Shown piece after piece: positions 16,940-49,107 of a stretch of DNA of 61,002 nucleotides. The DNA is from Burkholderia sp. Ac-20379 (lineage in GTDB: Bacteria; Pseudomonadota; Gammaproteobacteria; Burkholderiales; Burkholderiaceae): positions 1 to 61,002 of the forward strand of contig NZ_JAAGPF010000006.1 of assembly GCF_017104645.1 (NCBI RefSeq). The letters run 5' to 3'. The translations under genes and the position numbers were made by a program. The notes under the pieces were generated by a model, which saw only the letters and a program-made list of their open reading frames with translations, did no database searches and was not told the DNA's origin. The first letter of the stretch is position 1. Every line of letters starts with the position of its first letter.

Positions 16940-17629
16940 TCAATGTGCTTCGGCAACGCCGACTTCGATCAGATGGCGCTCGGCATCGAGTGCCGGCACC
17001 GCAAGCCGGATCGTCTGGCGAACTTGCGAGCCTTCCGGCAAACGGGCGATTTCGTCGTCGGGCTGCACGCCCTTCATCGCCCAGATTGCCCCGCCCGGCG
17101 CCACCAAGTGCCGGGCAAGGGCGACGAAATCCGACAGGTCGGCAAACGCGCGCGACACGATCACGTCGAACTGGCCCGGCACTTCGTGGCCCGGACGCAG
17201 CGTCTCGACGCGGCCCGTGACGACCGACAGGTTCGCGAGCTTCAGCTCGGCCTTGGCTTGCGTCTGGAATGCGGACTTCTTGTGGACGATATCGTTGAGC
17301 GTGACCTGCCAGTGCGGAAACACGATGGCCAGCACGATGCCGGGCAACCCGCCGCCCGAGCCGACGTCGAGCGCCGTCGTGGCCTTCAGGCCGCGCAGAT
17401 GCGGCACGATCGACAGCGAATCGAGGATGTGCTGAATCATCATCTGGCGCGGATCGCGGATCGCGGTCAGGTTGTAGACCGCGTTCCACTTGCCGAGCAG
17501 TGCGACGTAGTCGAGCAGCTTCGTCACCTGAGCCTCGTCCAGCGCGATGTCGAGCGAGGCAAGTCCTTCGGTCAGCAGCGCGTGCAGCGCATCGCGGGAG
17601 CCCCCCGCCATTGCGTTACGCCCCGTCAT
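16940..17629 (-). CDS. rsmG: 16S rRNA (guanine-527-N7)-methyltransferase RsmG (GidB)
   Basis: RsmG methylates G527 in the 530 loop of 16S rRNA using S-adenosylmethionine. The 229-residue protein has [20 protein letters not shown], the cofactor motif [16 protein letters not shown] and [15 protein letters not shown]. Its ATG at 17629 overlaps the mnmG stop codon (ATGA), so translation is likely coupled. Confidence 0.97.
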
Positions 17630-19596
17630 TGCTGCGTCGGGACGTTGTTGCCCCCTGCTTCGCCGGACGTCGAACCAGCTGCCGCGCCGCGACGGCCGAG
17701 GCCGCGCTTCAGATGCACCATCAACAGCGAGATGGCGGCCGGCGTGATGCCGGAAATCCGCGATGCCTGGCCGACCGTTTCAGGCCGATGCTGCTCGAAT
17801 TTCTGGCGCGCCTCGAACGACAGACCACGCACTTCCGCGTAGTCGATGCCTTCCGGCAGTCGCGTGTTCTCGTGCGCACCGTTGCGTTCGATCTCGCCAG
17901 CCTGGCGCTCGATATAGCCCTGGTACTTGATGCCGATCTCAATCTGTTCTTCGATCTGGGCAAGCAGCACCGGATCGTCGGCCAGCGCTTCGGCCGGGCC
18001 GCATTCGCCGCCACGCAATCCGCACACGCCGGCATAGCTGATGCCCGGACGGCGCAGCAGTTCGGCGAGGCTGTATTCGTGATCGATCGCCTTGCCGAGC
18101 AGCGCTTCCGCTTCGTCGGCCGGCAACGTCTTCGGCGTCACCCAGGTCTTGCGCAGGCGTTCTGTTTCACGTGAAACAGCATCGCGCTTGCGACAGAACG
18201 CGTCCCAGCGGGCGTCGTCGATCACGCCCAGTTCGCGGCCTATTTCGGTCAGGCGCATGTCGGCGTTGTCTTCGCGCAGGCTCAGACGATATTCGGCACG
18301 GCTCGTGAACATGCGATACGGCTCGGACACGCCTTGCGTAACCAGGTCGTCGACGAGCACGCCGAGGTAAGCCTGGTCGCGGCGCGGGCACCATGCTTCC
18401 TTGTCCTGCGCATAGCGGCCGGCGTTGATCCCGGCCAGCAGACCCTGTGCGGCCGCTTCTTCATAGCCGGTCGTGCCGTTGATCTGGCCCGCGAAGAACA
18501 ACCCGTCGATCACCTTGGTTTCCAGCGATGCCTTCAGGCCGCGCGGATCGAAGTAGTCGTACTCGATCGCATAACCGGGCCGCAGGATGTGCGCGTGCTC
18601 GAGCCCGCGCATCGAATGCACGAGGTCGAGCTGCACGTCGAACGGCAGGCTGGTGGAGATTCCGTTCGGGTAGAACTCGTGGGTGGTCAGCCCTTCCGGC
18701 TCCAGGAAGATCTGGTGCGAATCCTTCGAGGCGAAACGATGAATCTTGTCTTCGATCGACGGGCAGTAGCGCGGGCCGACACCGGCGATCACACCCGTGT
18801 ACATCGGCGAACGATCGAGGCCGCCGCGGATGATGTCGTGCGTGCGCTCGTTGGTATGCGTGACCCAGCACGGCATCTGGCGCGGGTGCATATCGGCGCG
18901 GCCGAGAAACGAGAACACCGGCACCGGATCGAGATCGCCCGGCTGCTCCTCGAGCTTCGAAAAGTCGATCGAGCGACCGTCGATACGCGGCGGCGTACCG
19001 GTCTTGAGGCGGCCTTGCGGCAGCTTCAGTTCCTTGAGACGCGACGACAGCGTGACTGCCGCCGGGTCCCCTGCCCGCCCGCCGGTGTGGTTGTTCAGGC
19101 CGACGTGGATCTTGCCGTCCAGGAACGTGCCAGCCGTCAGCACCACCGCGCGCGCGCGGAAGCGGATGCCGATCTGCGTAACAGCGCCCACCACTCGCTC
19201 GCCCTCGACGATCAAATCGTCCACGGCTTGCTGGAACAACCAGAGGTTCGGCTGGTTTTCGAGGCGGCTGCGGATCGCCTGCTTGTAGAGCAGACGGTCG
19301 GCCTGGGCCCGCGTGGCGCGCACGGCCGGGCCCTTCGAGGAGTTCAGGATCCGGAACTGGATGCCCGATTCGTCGGTGGCGATGCCCATGGCGCCGCCCA
19401 ACGCATCGACTTCCTTGACCAGATGGCCCTTGCCGATCCCGCCAATCGACGGGTTGCAGCTCATCTGCCCGAGTGTCTCGATGTTGTGCGTCAGCAGCAG
19501 CGTTTTCACGCCCATGCGCGCGGACGCCAAAGCGGCTTCCGTACCGGCATGACCGCCGCCAACGACGATCACGTCAAATTCAGTGGGATAAAGCAT
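17626..19596 (-). CDS. mnmG: tRNA uridine 5-carboxymethylaminomethyl modification enzyme MnmG (GidA)
   Basis: MnmG, a FAD protein, works with MnmE to add cmnm5 to the wobble uridine U34 of several tRNAs. The 656-residue protein starts [20 protein letters not shown] with its FAD-binding motif. It also has [20 protein letters not shown] and the tRNA-contacting GCGLRGGE-type stretch near the C-terminus (seen here as [11 protein letters not shown]). A perfect parS lies inside it at 18163-18178, where it encodes AVSRET. A strong -10 lies about 50 bases upstream of the ATG. Confidence 0.97.
18163..18178. promoter_or_regulatory. parS centromere site 1 (perfect)
   Basis: The 16-mer TGTTTCACGTGAAACA is a perfect palindrome identical to the widely conserved ParB-binding site. 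It lies inside the mnmG coding region, 2.1 kb upstream of parB. ParB should bind here and spread. Confidence 0.93.
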
Positions 19597-42818: not shown

Positions 42819-43333
42819 AGTCTTTTCGCTGTTGCCGGCCTCGGTTCGAACCGATGGCCTTTGTGGGGAGATCCGTGTCCGGGTCTGTCATCGAGCATCG
42901 AGATGCAGTGTCCGGAACGGCGCACCGATGCCCGTTCACCATGACTGATACGCCACGAACCGGCCTGCCAACGCAGTGCTATCCGGCACCGTCGTTCGCA
43001 AAGCCGACATTCTAAGCGAGAGCAGAAAATCGCACAGCTAAGTTATCCAAATAAGTCTGTGGATAAATCCGGGATAACTAAACGATCCGCCTGTGCCATT
43101 AAGAACGACTCTCATGTGCACGCACGCAACTGCTTTCAATCGACAAACAGGCAAGCACGGCAGGAGAGCGAAACGATCGTGCGCGGGACGCGCAGAGCCT
43201 TGAGTTTGCTGGGAAAGCGCCGGTTATCCACAAGCGCCCGGGGGAAATTGATTCAGACTACTACATTTGTCCGGCCGGCCCGAAAGCCGGTCGGACTTTC
43301 TGCCGCAGATACCGGCGGCGGAAATAGTCTTTT
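42819..43333. other. Intergenic region with two perfect DnaA boxes
   Basis: No gene is supported. DnaA-box 9-mers lie at 43058-43066 (TGTGGATAA) and 43224-43232 (TTATCCACA), with a one-mismatch TTATCCAAA at 43043-43051. A near-perfect 11-bp inverted repeat at 43269-43296 lies just beyond the YbdK-gene stop. The first 150 bases should contain the marR promoter. The region is AT-richer than adjacent coding DNA. Confidence 0.6.
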
Positions 43334-46474: not shown

Positions 46475-48448
46475 TCAGCCGGCGCGGCCCTGGCGCAGGG
46501 CGCGGAGCAGGAAGCGTGCGGGATCGATCGCTTCGGCCAGCTCGCGTTCGATCGGCCAGGGCTCGCCGTCGAGCTGCGAGGCGATCAGTTCGGCGCACAA
46601 CGCGGCCCAGATGAACCCGCGCGAACCGAAGCCGAATGCGCCGTAGAGGCCGGCCGCACGCGGCACGTCGCGTGCCTGCGCGCCCGATAGCGCGGCGGCT
46701 CGGGCGGCCGCTTCGGCTTCGTCGCCCAGCTCGCCCGCCATCGGCAGGCGGTCGCTCGCCACGCAGCGGAACGCCACGCGGCCGGCCAGCGTGGCCGGAT
46801 CCGCCATGGCGGCTGTATCGATGTTGCTGCATGGCAGCAGCGCGGCGAGCCGGGCCAAGTTCTCGCGATGGCCGCTGGCGCGCAGGGCCGGATCCGCGTC
46901 GTCGGGATCGTAGGTCGCACCGGTCAGGGCGGTGCCGTCGGCGAATGGAATCAGGTAGCCGTCGCCGATCGCCGGCAGCGCGACGGCGGGTGCGACGCCA
47001 GCCGGCAGCACGGTCAGTTGGCCGCGCACGATCTGCACCGGCGCATGACGCAACTGCGCGACGCGCGGCGCGTCGGCCGCATTGGCGACGATCGCCACCG
47101 ACGCCTCGGCCAGCGTCTTGCCCGCGGCATCGACGGCGCGCCAACCGCCGCCGTCGCGCGGCACGAGCTGCGCGACCGCCACGCCATGCAGGCGCGTGAG
47201 CCGCTCGCCCGCCATCGCGCACGCAGCGCTCGCGAGCGCCGCCGGATCGAGCGAGCCGCCGTGCGGAAAGAACCATCCGCCGTGCGCCGTAGCGGTGTGC
47301 AGGCGCTCGGCCGCCTGGTCGCGCGTGAGCAGAACGGCCAGCGTTTCCGGCATGCCGAGCGCGGCCGCGGCCGCCTGCATGCGTTCGAACTCGTCGTCGT
47401 TGCAAGCCAGTTGCAGCAGGCCGTTCGCGCTGCGGGCGAAGTCGTGACCGGCTGCCTCGAACGCACGCCAGCGCGACAGCGCATACAGATAGCCGGCGCG
47501 CGACAGCCGTGCGCCGAAGTTGTCGTCGATCGCGACGAGCGGATGAAACACGCCGGCCGGATTGCCCGACGCTTCGCCTGCCACGTCGTCGCGACGTTCG
47601 ATCAGCGTGACGCGCCAGCCGCGCGCCGTAAGACGCTCGGCAAGCGCGCTGCCGGCAAGCCCGGCGCCGATCACGATCGCATCGCGTGCCGCGACGTCGC
47701 AAGCGCGCGGCGGCTCGTGGCGGCGCACCTTCCAGCGCGGCGCGAAAATACCCGCACGATGTTCTTCCCGATACGAAAAGCCCGCGTTTTGCAGGGCTTT
47801 TCGCATCGCGTCGTCGATCGTATCGATGGCGAACGTGGCATCTTCATCGGCCAGCTTGGCGAGCGCGCGACATGCGGCGTCGGCATTGCCGCCGCGATTG
47901 TTCCGGACTGCGAAGGTATCGAGATGGAACGCATCGGCGCGCAGCACGAGCGACGACAGCATCGCATCGGGATCGCCGAACGCGAGCGTCAGGATCACGC
48001 CGCCGGCATCGAATTCCAGGCGATGCAGGCCCGGCGCGAGGATCGGCCACGCGCCGGCAAGCGCATCGATCAGGCGTTCGAATTCCGATGTCATAGTGGT
48101 TGCATTCGCAACCATACGTTCGGCGGCCCGGCGCAGATCGTCGCGTGAAAACGGATGCGCCTCGATTGCTACGTAGTGCAGACGTTCGCTTCGAGCCGGA
48201 TCGGCGCGCCACGCGGCCCAGGTGGCGAGAAAGCGCCATCCGGCGCCGAAGCCGGTTTCGACGATCGTGAAGCTGCGCCGCCCGCGCCAGCGCTCGGGCA
48301 GCCCGTTGCCGTGCAGGAAGCCGCTGCCGGCTTGCGCTGGCGCAGCATATGTTTCGGTTGCGGCAGGCTGCAGAGCGCCATGAACGGACGAAACGAGCGC
48401 GCCGTTTTCGCGGAGCTCGAGCGTGGCAGGGATCAGTCGGTCGGTCAT
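46475..48448 (-). CDS. mnmC: MnmC: tRNA U34 modification enzyme with degenerate methyltransferase half
   Basis: MnmC normally removes the carboxymethyl of cmnm5U34 (C-terminal FAD domain) and then methylates nm5U34 (N-terminal domain). In this 657-residue protein the FAD half looks intact: AIVIGAGLAGSALAERLTAR, GEASGNPAGVFHPL, GDGYLIPFADGT and GLYGAFGFGSRGFIWAALCA. The methyltransferase half keeps GFGAG (66-70) and Asp177, but the usual LDGFAPxKNPxMW block reads LDTFAVRNNRGGN. The segment between it and FAPRWKVRRHE also appears shortened relative to relatives I recall. I chose the ATG at 48448. The frame is open throughout. Confidence 0.9.
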   Translation of the reverse strand: MTDRLIPATLELRENGALVSSVHGALQPAATETYAAPAQAGSGFLHGNGLPERWRGRRSFTIVETGFGAGWRFLATWAAWRADPARSERLHYVAIEAHPFSRDDLRRAAERMVANATTMTSEFERLIDALAGAWPILAPGLHRLEFDAGGVILTLAFGDPDAMLSSLVLRADAFHLDTFAVRNNRGGNADAACRALAKLADEDATFAIDTIDDAMRKALQNAGFSYREEHRAGIFAPRWKVRRHEPPRACDVAARDAIVIGAGLAGSALAERLTARGWRVTLIERRDDVAGEASGNPAGVFHPLVAIDDNFGARLSRAGYLYALSRWRAFEAAGHDFARSANGLLQLACNDDEFERMQAAAAALGMPETLAVLLTRDQAAERLHTATAHGGWFFPHGGSLDPAALASAACAMAGERLTRLHGVAVAQLVPRDGGGWRAVDAAGKTLAEASVAIVANAADAPRVAQLRHAPVQIVRGQLTVLPAGVAPAVALPAIGDGYLIPFADGTALTGATYDPDDADPALRASGHRENLARLAALLPCSNIDTAAMADPATLAGRVAFRCVASDRLPMAGELGDEAEAAARAAALSGAQARDVPRAAGLYGAFGFGSRGFIWAALCAELIASQLDGEPWPIERELAEAIDPARFLLRALRQGRAG

Positions 48449-48828
48449 GCGAAACATTCGAAATGGGCCGGCATCGGCCTGGAAGCCCCGCCCCGCTTGG
48501 CGTTGGCAAAAACCAACGTCGCCGCGCGAGGCCAGGTTCGCACGCTTGACAAGGCCGTACGGTGCGCGGCAAAAATGCGGGCAACGGCGCTGGAATCCGG
48601 CAAAATCCGGATGAAAATCTTTGAAACCCTTGTCGTTATTGGGTTTGCGCTGCGCTATCATAGCAAGCGCCGTAAAGCGGAAGCGCCTCAGGCGCCTTCG
48701 CTGTTACGAGGCGCGGCGCGGTCCGACTGCGCCCTGCCGTCGCCGCGAACTGCGATGCAACGGTAGGCGTACGTATAATCGGCGCGTCCGCGCTGTTCGT
48801 GTCAACTTAACCTGAGAAAGGAACCTTA
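48449..48828. other. mnmC-hup divergent region
   Basis: No gene is supported. The plus-strand hup promoter probably lies here: a perfect -10 is annotated at 48774, and a second TATCAT (48656-48661) lacks a good -35. The leftward mnmC promoter must lie in the first 150 bases but is not clear. Confidence 0.5.
48774..48779 (+). promoter_or_regulatory. Perfect -10 element upstream of hup
   Basis: TATAAT lies 50 bases before the hup ATG. The -35 at 17 bases (TGCGAT) is weak. AAAGGA at 48818-48823 is the ribosome site for the ATG at 48829. Confidence 0.55.
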
Positions 48829-49107
48829 ATGAACAAACAGGAACTGATCGACGCCGTCGCCGCACAGACGGGCGCCAGCAAGGCACAAACCGGCGAAACG
48901 CTGGACACGCTCCTCGAAGTGATCAAGAAGGCCGTGTCGAAAGGCGACGCGGTTCAGTTGATCGGCTTCGGCAGCTTCGGCTCGGGTAAGCGTGCAGCAC
49001 GTACCGGCCGCAACCCGAAGACGGGCGAAACCATCAAGATTCCGGCAGCCAAGACCGTCAAGTTCACGGCTGGCAAGGCATTCAAGGATGCAGTGAACAA
49101 GCGCTAA
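48829..49107 (+). CDS. hupB: DNA-binding protein HU (beta type)
   Basis: Nucleoid protein of 92 residues that bends and compacts DNA as a dimer. It starts [20 protein letters not shown]. The DNA-binding arm is [20 protein letters not shown], with the conserved RTGRNP tip, and the C-terminus is [13 protein letters not shown]. Strong ribosome site and terminator suggest high expression. It lies 2.4 kb from the candidate origin. Confidence 0.98.

Follow-up and report, generated by a model that had tools for sequence, protein, structure and literature searches.

The window analysed here is a stretch of 61,002 nucleotides from Burkholderia sp. Ac-20379, and our subject is its mnmC gene (46475..48448, minus strand). 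The reading frame is full length, with 657 amino acids and no stop codon, and the MnmC match runs from end to end. We set the start at 48448 because the alignment of the relatives begins there; starting instead from the in-frame ATG at 48661 would lengthen the protein by 71 amino acids. In length, domain order and the predicted fold of its halves the protein resembles the bifunctional MnmC of E. coli and Yersinia, which joins a methyltransferase (MTase; MnmC2/MnmD) to an oxidase (MnmC1). The N-terminal MTase half (residues 1–245; 47714..48448, minus strand) is eroded, and the C-terminal flavin adenine dinucleotide (FAD) oxidase half (residues 254–657; 46475..47689, minus strand) is intact. This combination of a degenerate and an intact half had been proposed in the original prediction, and alignment with relatives, domain scores and counts of conserved positions all confirm it.

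The whole protein passes the NCBIfam rule for full-length MnmC (NF002480; 655 bits, cut-off 540), and the oxidase half, like that of E. coli and Yersinia MnmC, lies above the curated cut-off (TIGR03197; 389 bits, cut-off 174). Unlike in those enzymes, the MTase half falls below the cut-off of the NCBI curated MTase-domain model (NF033855; 106 bits, cut-off 136). Under this model four intact fused copies scanned among the relatives reach 215–227 bits and three eroded Burkholderia copies 83–103 bits. The MTase half is still homologous to the family, with about 39.4–43 bits to PF05430 (gathering cut-off 22), and structure prediction gives it an intact fold.

Residues lost from the methyltransferase half

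Residue numbers of E. coli were transferred onto the window protein through its alignment with E. coli MnmC. In this numbering Phe67, Gly68, Gly70, Glu101 and Asp178 of the S-adenosylmethionine (SAM) site are kept. Asn72 has become Arg, Gly179 Thr, Pro182 Val, Lys184 Asn and Trp189 Asn, and Lys236 is deleted; Asn72, Gly179, Pro182, Trp189 and Lys236 are the residues whose absence sets the protein apart from the E. coli and Yersinia enzymes. Kim and Almo, in the part of their paper available to us, assign Asp178, Gly179 and Pro182 to SAM binding and Lys236 to RNA binding, each of them being more than 98% conserved across 140 bifunctional MnmC proteins (PMC3648344).

The SAM loop, ETGFGAGWRF (residues 64–73; 48230..48259, minus strand; E. 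coli roles from PMC3648344), carries Arg in place of Asn72, a position that is Asn in 50 of 51 intact rows and Ser in the other. The original prediction had called this loop altered. For Asn72 the claim stands; for the Ala at the Thr69 position it does not, as 11 of the 51 intact rows have Ala there too, so GFGAG alone is no defect. Glu96, which corresponds to E. coli Glu101, a contact of the SAM ribose in the same source (PMC3648344), is kept (48161..48163, minus strand).

In the window protein the catalytic block reads LDTFAVRNNRGGN (residues 176–188; 47885..47923, minus strand). Asp177 (own numbering) is still in place, and Gly has been replaced by Thr178, Pro by Val181, Lys by Asn183, the second Pro by Arg185 and Trp by Asn188. 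These losses had been seen correctly, together with a supposed loss of the Asn of Lys-Asn-Pro, which is in fact present as Asn184. A second defect had gone unmentioned: a 24-base in-frame deletion (site at 47756..47767, minus strand) removed the GFxGKRAML loop including Lys236, a residue that all 51 intact rows share. We also considered a compensated frameshift as the origin of the odd block and rejected it, since the DNA shows substitutions and this single in-frame deletion.

How far the two halves have departed from their relatives can be counted. Conservation was judged in 48 intact rows, a reference from which the nearest relatives (G303, G311 and G304; 71–73% identity over the whole protein) were excluded. 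Of the 79 N-half positions with at least 96% conservation there, 18 have changed in the window protein and none in any of the three relatives. For the C half the count is 3 of 89 in the window protein and 3, 3 and 2 in the trio. A second count with a slightly different reference set gives 19 of 89 changed positions in the N half versus 2 of 106 in the C half (Fisher p 1e-5). In the trees, all of a quick type with support only from the Shimodaira–Hasegawa-like approximate likelihood ratio test (SH-aLRT), the terminal branch of the window protein has a length of 0.67 for the N half, from which the motif columns had been removed, versus 0.19 for the C half; for the nearest relative these lengths are 0.09 and 0.16. 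GC content at third codon positions is 0.72 in the N half of the gene versus 0.85 in the C half. The conserved positions of the oxidase half point to normal constraint. The claim that the frame is open and the oxidase motifs are kept thus holds, with 657 codons free of stops, a TIGR03197 score of more than twice the cut-off and only the 3 changes in 89 positions.

Eroded and intact halves across Burkholderia

All 65 Burkholderia genomes in our sample carry mnmC, 64 of them as a single piece; in the remaining one, contig ends divide the gene. The MTase half was read in every one of them and is eroded in 35 and intact in 30. This division follows our own rule, by which a copy is intact if its block retains both DGF[AS]P and a Trp, as it does in those 30. 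PF05430 scores separate the two groups likewise, with 96–125 bits for intact and 31–69 bits for eroded halves. The rule scores one partly eroded copy of the B. ambifaria type as intact, L011 (from G063; its named twin is L119, B. ambifaria RZ2MS16). The MTase half of this copy is intermediate, with DGFAPAKSPDPW as its block, EMGFGAG as its loop, a PF05430 score of 96 bits and changes at 6 of the 79 conserved positions.

Names could be attached to copies drawn from 80 of the 233 relatives' loci, the species being those given in the records. Eroded copies include those of B. cepacia, B. cenocepacia, B. lata, B. arboris, B. seminalis, B. territorii, B. puraquae and B. aenigmatica; intact copies include those of B. 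ubonensis, B. dolosa, B. stagnalis, B. latens, B. metallica and B. singularis. Independently, a published comparison, as far as its accessible part goes, lists COG4121 (MTase) in nine of nine B. multivorans genomes, to the exclusion of six B. cenocepacia genomes in the same set (PMC5400248). NF002480 labels eroded copies as bifunctional MTase and oxidase, with 655–730 bits in four eroded Burkholderia copies scanned. These copies fail the MTase-domain rule, so systematic mis-annotation is likely. If the MTase halves are indeed inactive, about half of the sampled Burkholderia genomes would be wrongly annotated with an MTase.

On the tree of N halves (motif columns removed) the 34 eroded halves other than that of the window form one clade (SH-aLRT 99). 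Two changes between the eroded and the intact state are needed on this tree versus nine on the tree of C halves, on which forcing those 34 copies together is rejected by the approximately unbiased (AU) test (p 1e-49). Eight hand-picked pairs of an intact and an eroded copy share 63–89% DNA identity across the first 750 bases of the gene; in the oxidase half they share 79–98%, and in the flanks mostly more than 85%. No such block of low identity was found in two eroded–eroded pairs and one intact–intact pair. The ratio of synonymous divergence (dS) in the N half to that in the C half has a median of 2.24 for eight intact copies, each compared with its nearest eroded copy, and is 1.16 for 33 eroded–eroded and 1.21 for 13 intact–intact nearest pairs. 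Ratios of about 1.2–1.7, calculated by hand from printed values, apply to five more intact copies, whose position in the C tree lies outside its mixed part.

Rapid protein change alone would leave synonymous divergence unraised. Hence, a high ratio argues that halves have been exchanged on a common backbone, and MTase halves, both living and dead, appear to have passed between Burkholderia species. A broader proposal, which we make tentatively and rate at somewhat below even odds, is that the MTase half is an exchangeable module. Its living and dead alleles would recombine across species, with edges near the start of the gene and at the domain boundary; methylation of U34, the wobble uridine, would be lost and might be regained, and the oxidase half would stay constant.

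For the window itself, a plain import of the N half from the eroded clade of other Burkholderia was considered and rejected: this half groups with the trio of G303, G311 and G304 (support 92, not starred). It also shares long exact DNA with G303 next to the block. However, the AU test (p 0.32) leaves room for a single clade that unites the N half of the window protein with the other eroded ones. From these comparisons, two losses of the MTase half within Burkholderia are likely.

Upstream of mnmC lies a divergent gene for an HU-type DNA-binding protein (48829–49107; PF00216, 119 bits). The corresponding 5' flank is 97–100% identical in the species pairs of the B. cepacia complex type that were compared, directly beside the exchanged MTase half.

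Stand-alone methyltransferases in other genera

Our family sample comprises 299 genomes. Eroded fused halves are also found in g10 (Caballeronia), G017 (g17), G016, G037 (Pararobbsia alpina) and G053 (g16), G085 and G150 (g20), and G002 (g3). Among the 40 Caballeronia genomes the N half could be read in 32 and as a fragment in two more, and none of these has DGFxP; locus L245 was unreadable and five genomes were not read. An uninterrupted stand-alone PF05430 gene is present in 23 of the 40, with 105–126 bits and DGFAP in all cases, three carry partial or broken stand-alone pieces (G256, G209 and G238), and 14 have none. G016 and G017 have a stand-alone gene as well, and none was found in G037, G053, G085, G150 or G002.

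In the tree the stand-alone genes nest inside fused N halves of the Paraburkholderia type. All 25 of them fall, together with eight fused rows, into a starred group of 33 rows, and the grouping that would give them a single origin has a support of 22. By its position in the tree, the stand-alone MTase of Caballeronia descends from a fused gene of the same kind. It performs the step that the eroded half has presumably lost. Decay of a fused MTase half can follow the arrival of a stand-alone copy, and in many Caballeronia genomes the stand-alone MTase took over. In eight named Caballeronia the stand-alone genes lie on replicons of 0.6–2.0 Mb, and no Burkholderia is found among the best 40 of 104 plasmid records.

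The pieces of stand-alone genes mentioned above (L207 in G256, L208 in G209 and L209 in G238) are split over two frames, located at a contig end, or partial, and the replacement gene may itself be decaying in some genomes of the Caballeronia group. A single internal stop codon interrupts the mnmC match in G216, G174, G117, G198, G161, G147, G133, G228, G109, G239, G101 (g11) and G244 (g10), mostly within one genus; it is TAG in G109 and TGA in the others.

Modification of U34 and the wider window

MnmE, MnmG and MnmA are all present in the window genome, so 5-carboxymethylaminomethyl-(2-thio)uridine, cmnm5(s2)U, is expected at U34. MnmEG would convert U34 of the relevant tRNAs to cmnm5(s2)U, and the oxidase half would cleave this to the 5-aminomethyl form, nm5(s2)U. 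The final methylation to the 5-methylaminomethyl form, mnm5(s2)U, would be absent unless some other enzyme carries it out. With a probability of roughly two in three, we think that the window MnmC is a working FAD oxidase with a retained, inactive MTase fold and that U34 ends at nm5(s2)U. It is from sequence that we infer the inactivity of the MTase half, its retention as a support for the protein or a holder of the tRNA, and the final nucleoside. The original prediction, which had named this end point or a changed substrate as outcomes of a dead MTase, is supported in part. Since decay of this half is found in many relatives as well, the textbook tRNA methyl mark is probably missing there or made by another enzyme.

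The predicted phenotype is that of the E. coli mnmC(m)-G68D mutant, in which the oxidase is active, the MTase is inactive and nm5(s2)U builds up (PMC3936742). Unlike this laboratory allele with its single substitution, the window half is natural and heavily eroded, and Gly68 is kept. According to the available part of the same study, nm5s2U accumulates at about 85/15 over cmnm5s2U in MTase-defective E. coli, and the cost is felt mainly in competition or without MnmA (PMC3936742).

Several observations weigh against an inactive half kept as a scaffold. The PF05430 cut-off is still exceeded, and because Asp178, Phe67, Gly68, Gly70 and Glu101 are kept, the half may still bind SAM. Pairwise ratios of nonsynonymous to synonymous divergence (dN/dS) are below 1 among the eroded MTase halves, which means that they do not drift freely. 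These ratios were obtained with the NG86 method and Jukes–Cantor correction, after removal of pairs with dS outside 0.1–1.2 (1 of 528, 1 of 190 and 0 of 45) and without L067 (G319), which is interrupted by a contig end. As for a supporting role, E. coli MnmC(o) folds and functions alone, as the accessible text has it (PMC3936742). Finally, an unrelated replacement enzyme might exist, the search having covered two families, PF05430 and PF06962.

That last point leads to an alternative that we regard as unlikely but worth weighing, namely that the MTase half is dead and that Burkholderia methylates nm5(s2)U with a so far undescribed enzyme unrelated to it, the decay having set in after the arrival of this enzyme. 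Replacement does occur in the family, as decay accompanies a separate MTase gene in Caballeronia, G016 and G017. An unrelated protein can do the job as well: MnmM (PF06962) of Firmicutes performs the same methylation, according to the part of the source at hand (PMC9976899). However, neither the stand-alone MnmD nor the MnmM that the original prediction had suggested looking for was found in the window genome. A PF05430 search with E up to 10 returned only MnmC at E 0.001, the next match having 11.6 bits, and the PF06962 profile had no match, nor did it in any of the 65 Burkholderia genomes. Unlike in Caballeronia, no second PF05430 enzyme was found in these 65 genomes either, only mnmC and a few weak matches. 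The four of these above the cut-off (22–31 bits; G299, G155, G234 and G283) were rejected as replacements, as they score higher as spermidine-synthase-like proteins and are without DGFxP; they accompany both intact and eroded mnmC and are absent from the window genome. Moreover, among Caballeronia with an eroded half there are some, 14 of the 40 genomes, that are likewise without a stand-alone match.

It is improbable that the MTase half of the window protein has retained activity, whether with a changed pocket or on a different substrate. The five kept SAM-site residues, a dN/dS below 1 and the intact predicted fold would fit such an activity, yet there are three arguments against it. First, Gly179, Pro182 and Lys236, each conserved as strongly as noted above (PMC3648344), are lost along with Asn72 and Trp189. 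Second, eroded relatives lose Asp178 too: the window protein has kept this residue, but 14 of 38 other eroded rows are without it. Third, the changes are scattered and lineage-specific, unlike one shared new site. A sequencing or assembly artefact or a pseudogene could be suspected in a draft genome of 826 contigs, but is scarcely credible given a 657-codon open frame with codon substitutions, one in-frame deletion and no frameshifts, a normal oxidase half and the same eroded state in the genomes of 34 other Burkholderia species.

The MnmC family is known; for an inactive MnmC half, and for natural, repeated decay of one half together with its allelic exchange, we found no description in the literature searched, so far as its accessible parts go. 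A literature search on the tRNA nucleosides of Burkholderia gave no result. If U34 does end at nm5(s2)U, then Burkholderiaceae do not always carry the modification through to mnm5(s2)U34. A bifunctional enzyme would be seen coming apart stepwise, its half decaying either alone or with a stand-alone MTase alongside. Closely related species whose near-identical genes differ in having a living or a dead MTase half form natural pairs, in which the role of the last methyl group would be directly testable.

The gene for the upstream step of the same pathway, mnmG, lies in the same window (17626..19596, minus strand; TIGR00136 match at 17704–19578), as do rsmG and a parA-like gene, all three at 16–20 kb. 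Cumulative GC skew has its minimum near 42–43 kb, and four exact DnaA boxes of the TTATCCACA type are found between 42000 and 46400 (at 43058, 43224, 46150 and 46331). The likely origin region of the chromosome is thus close to mnmC.
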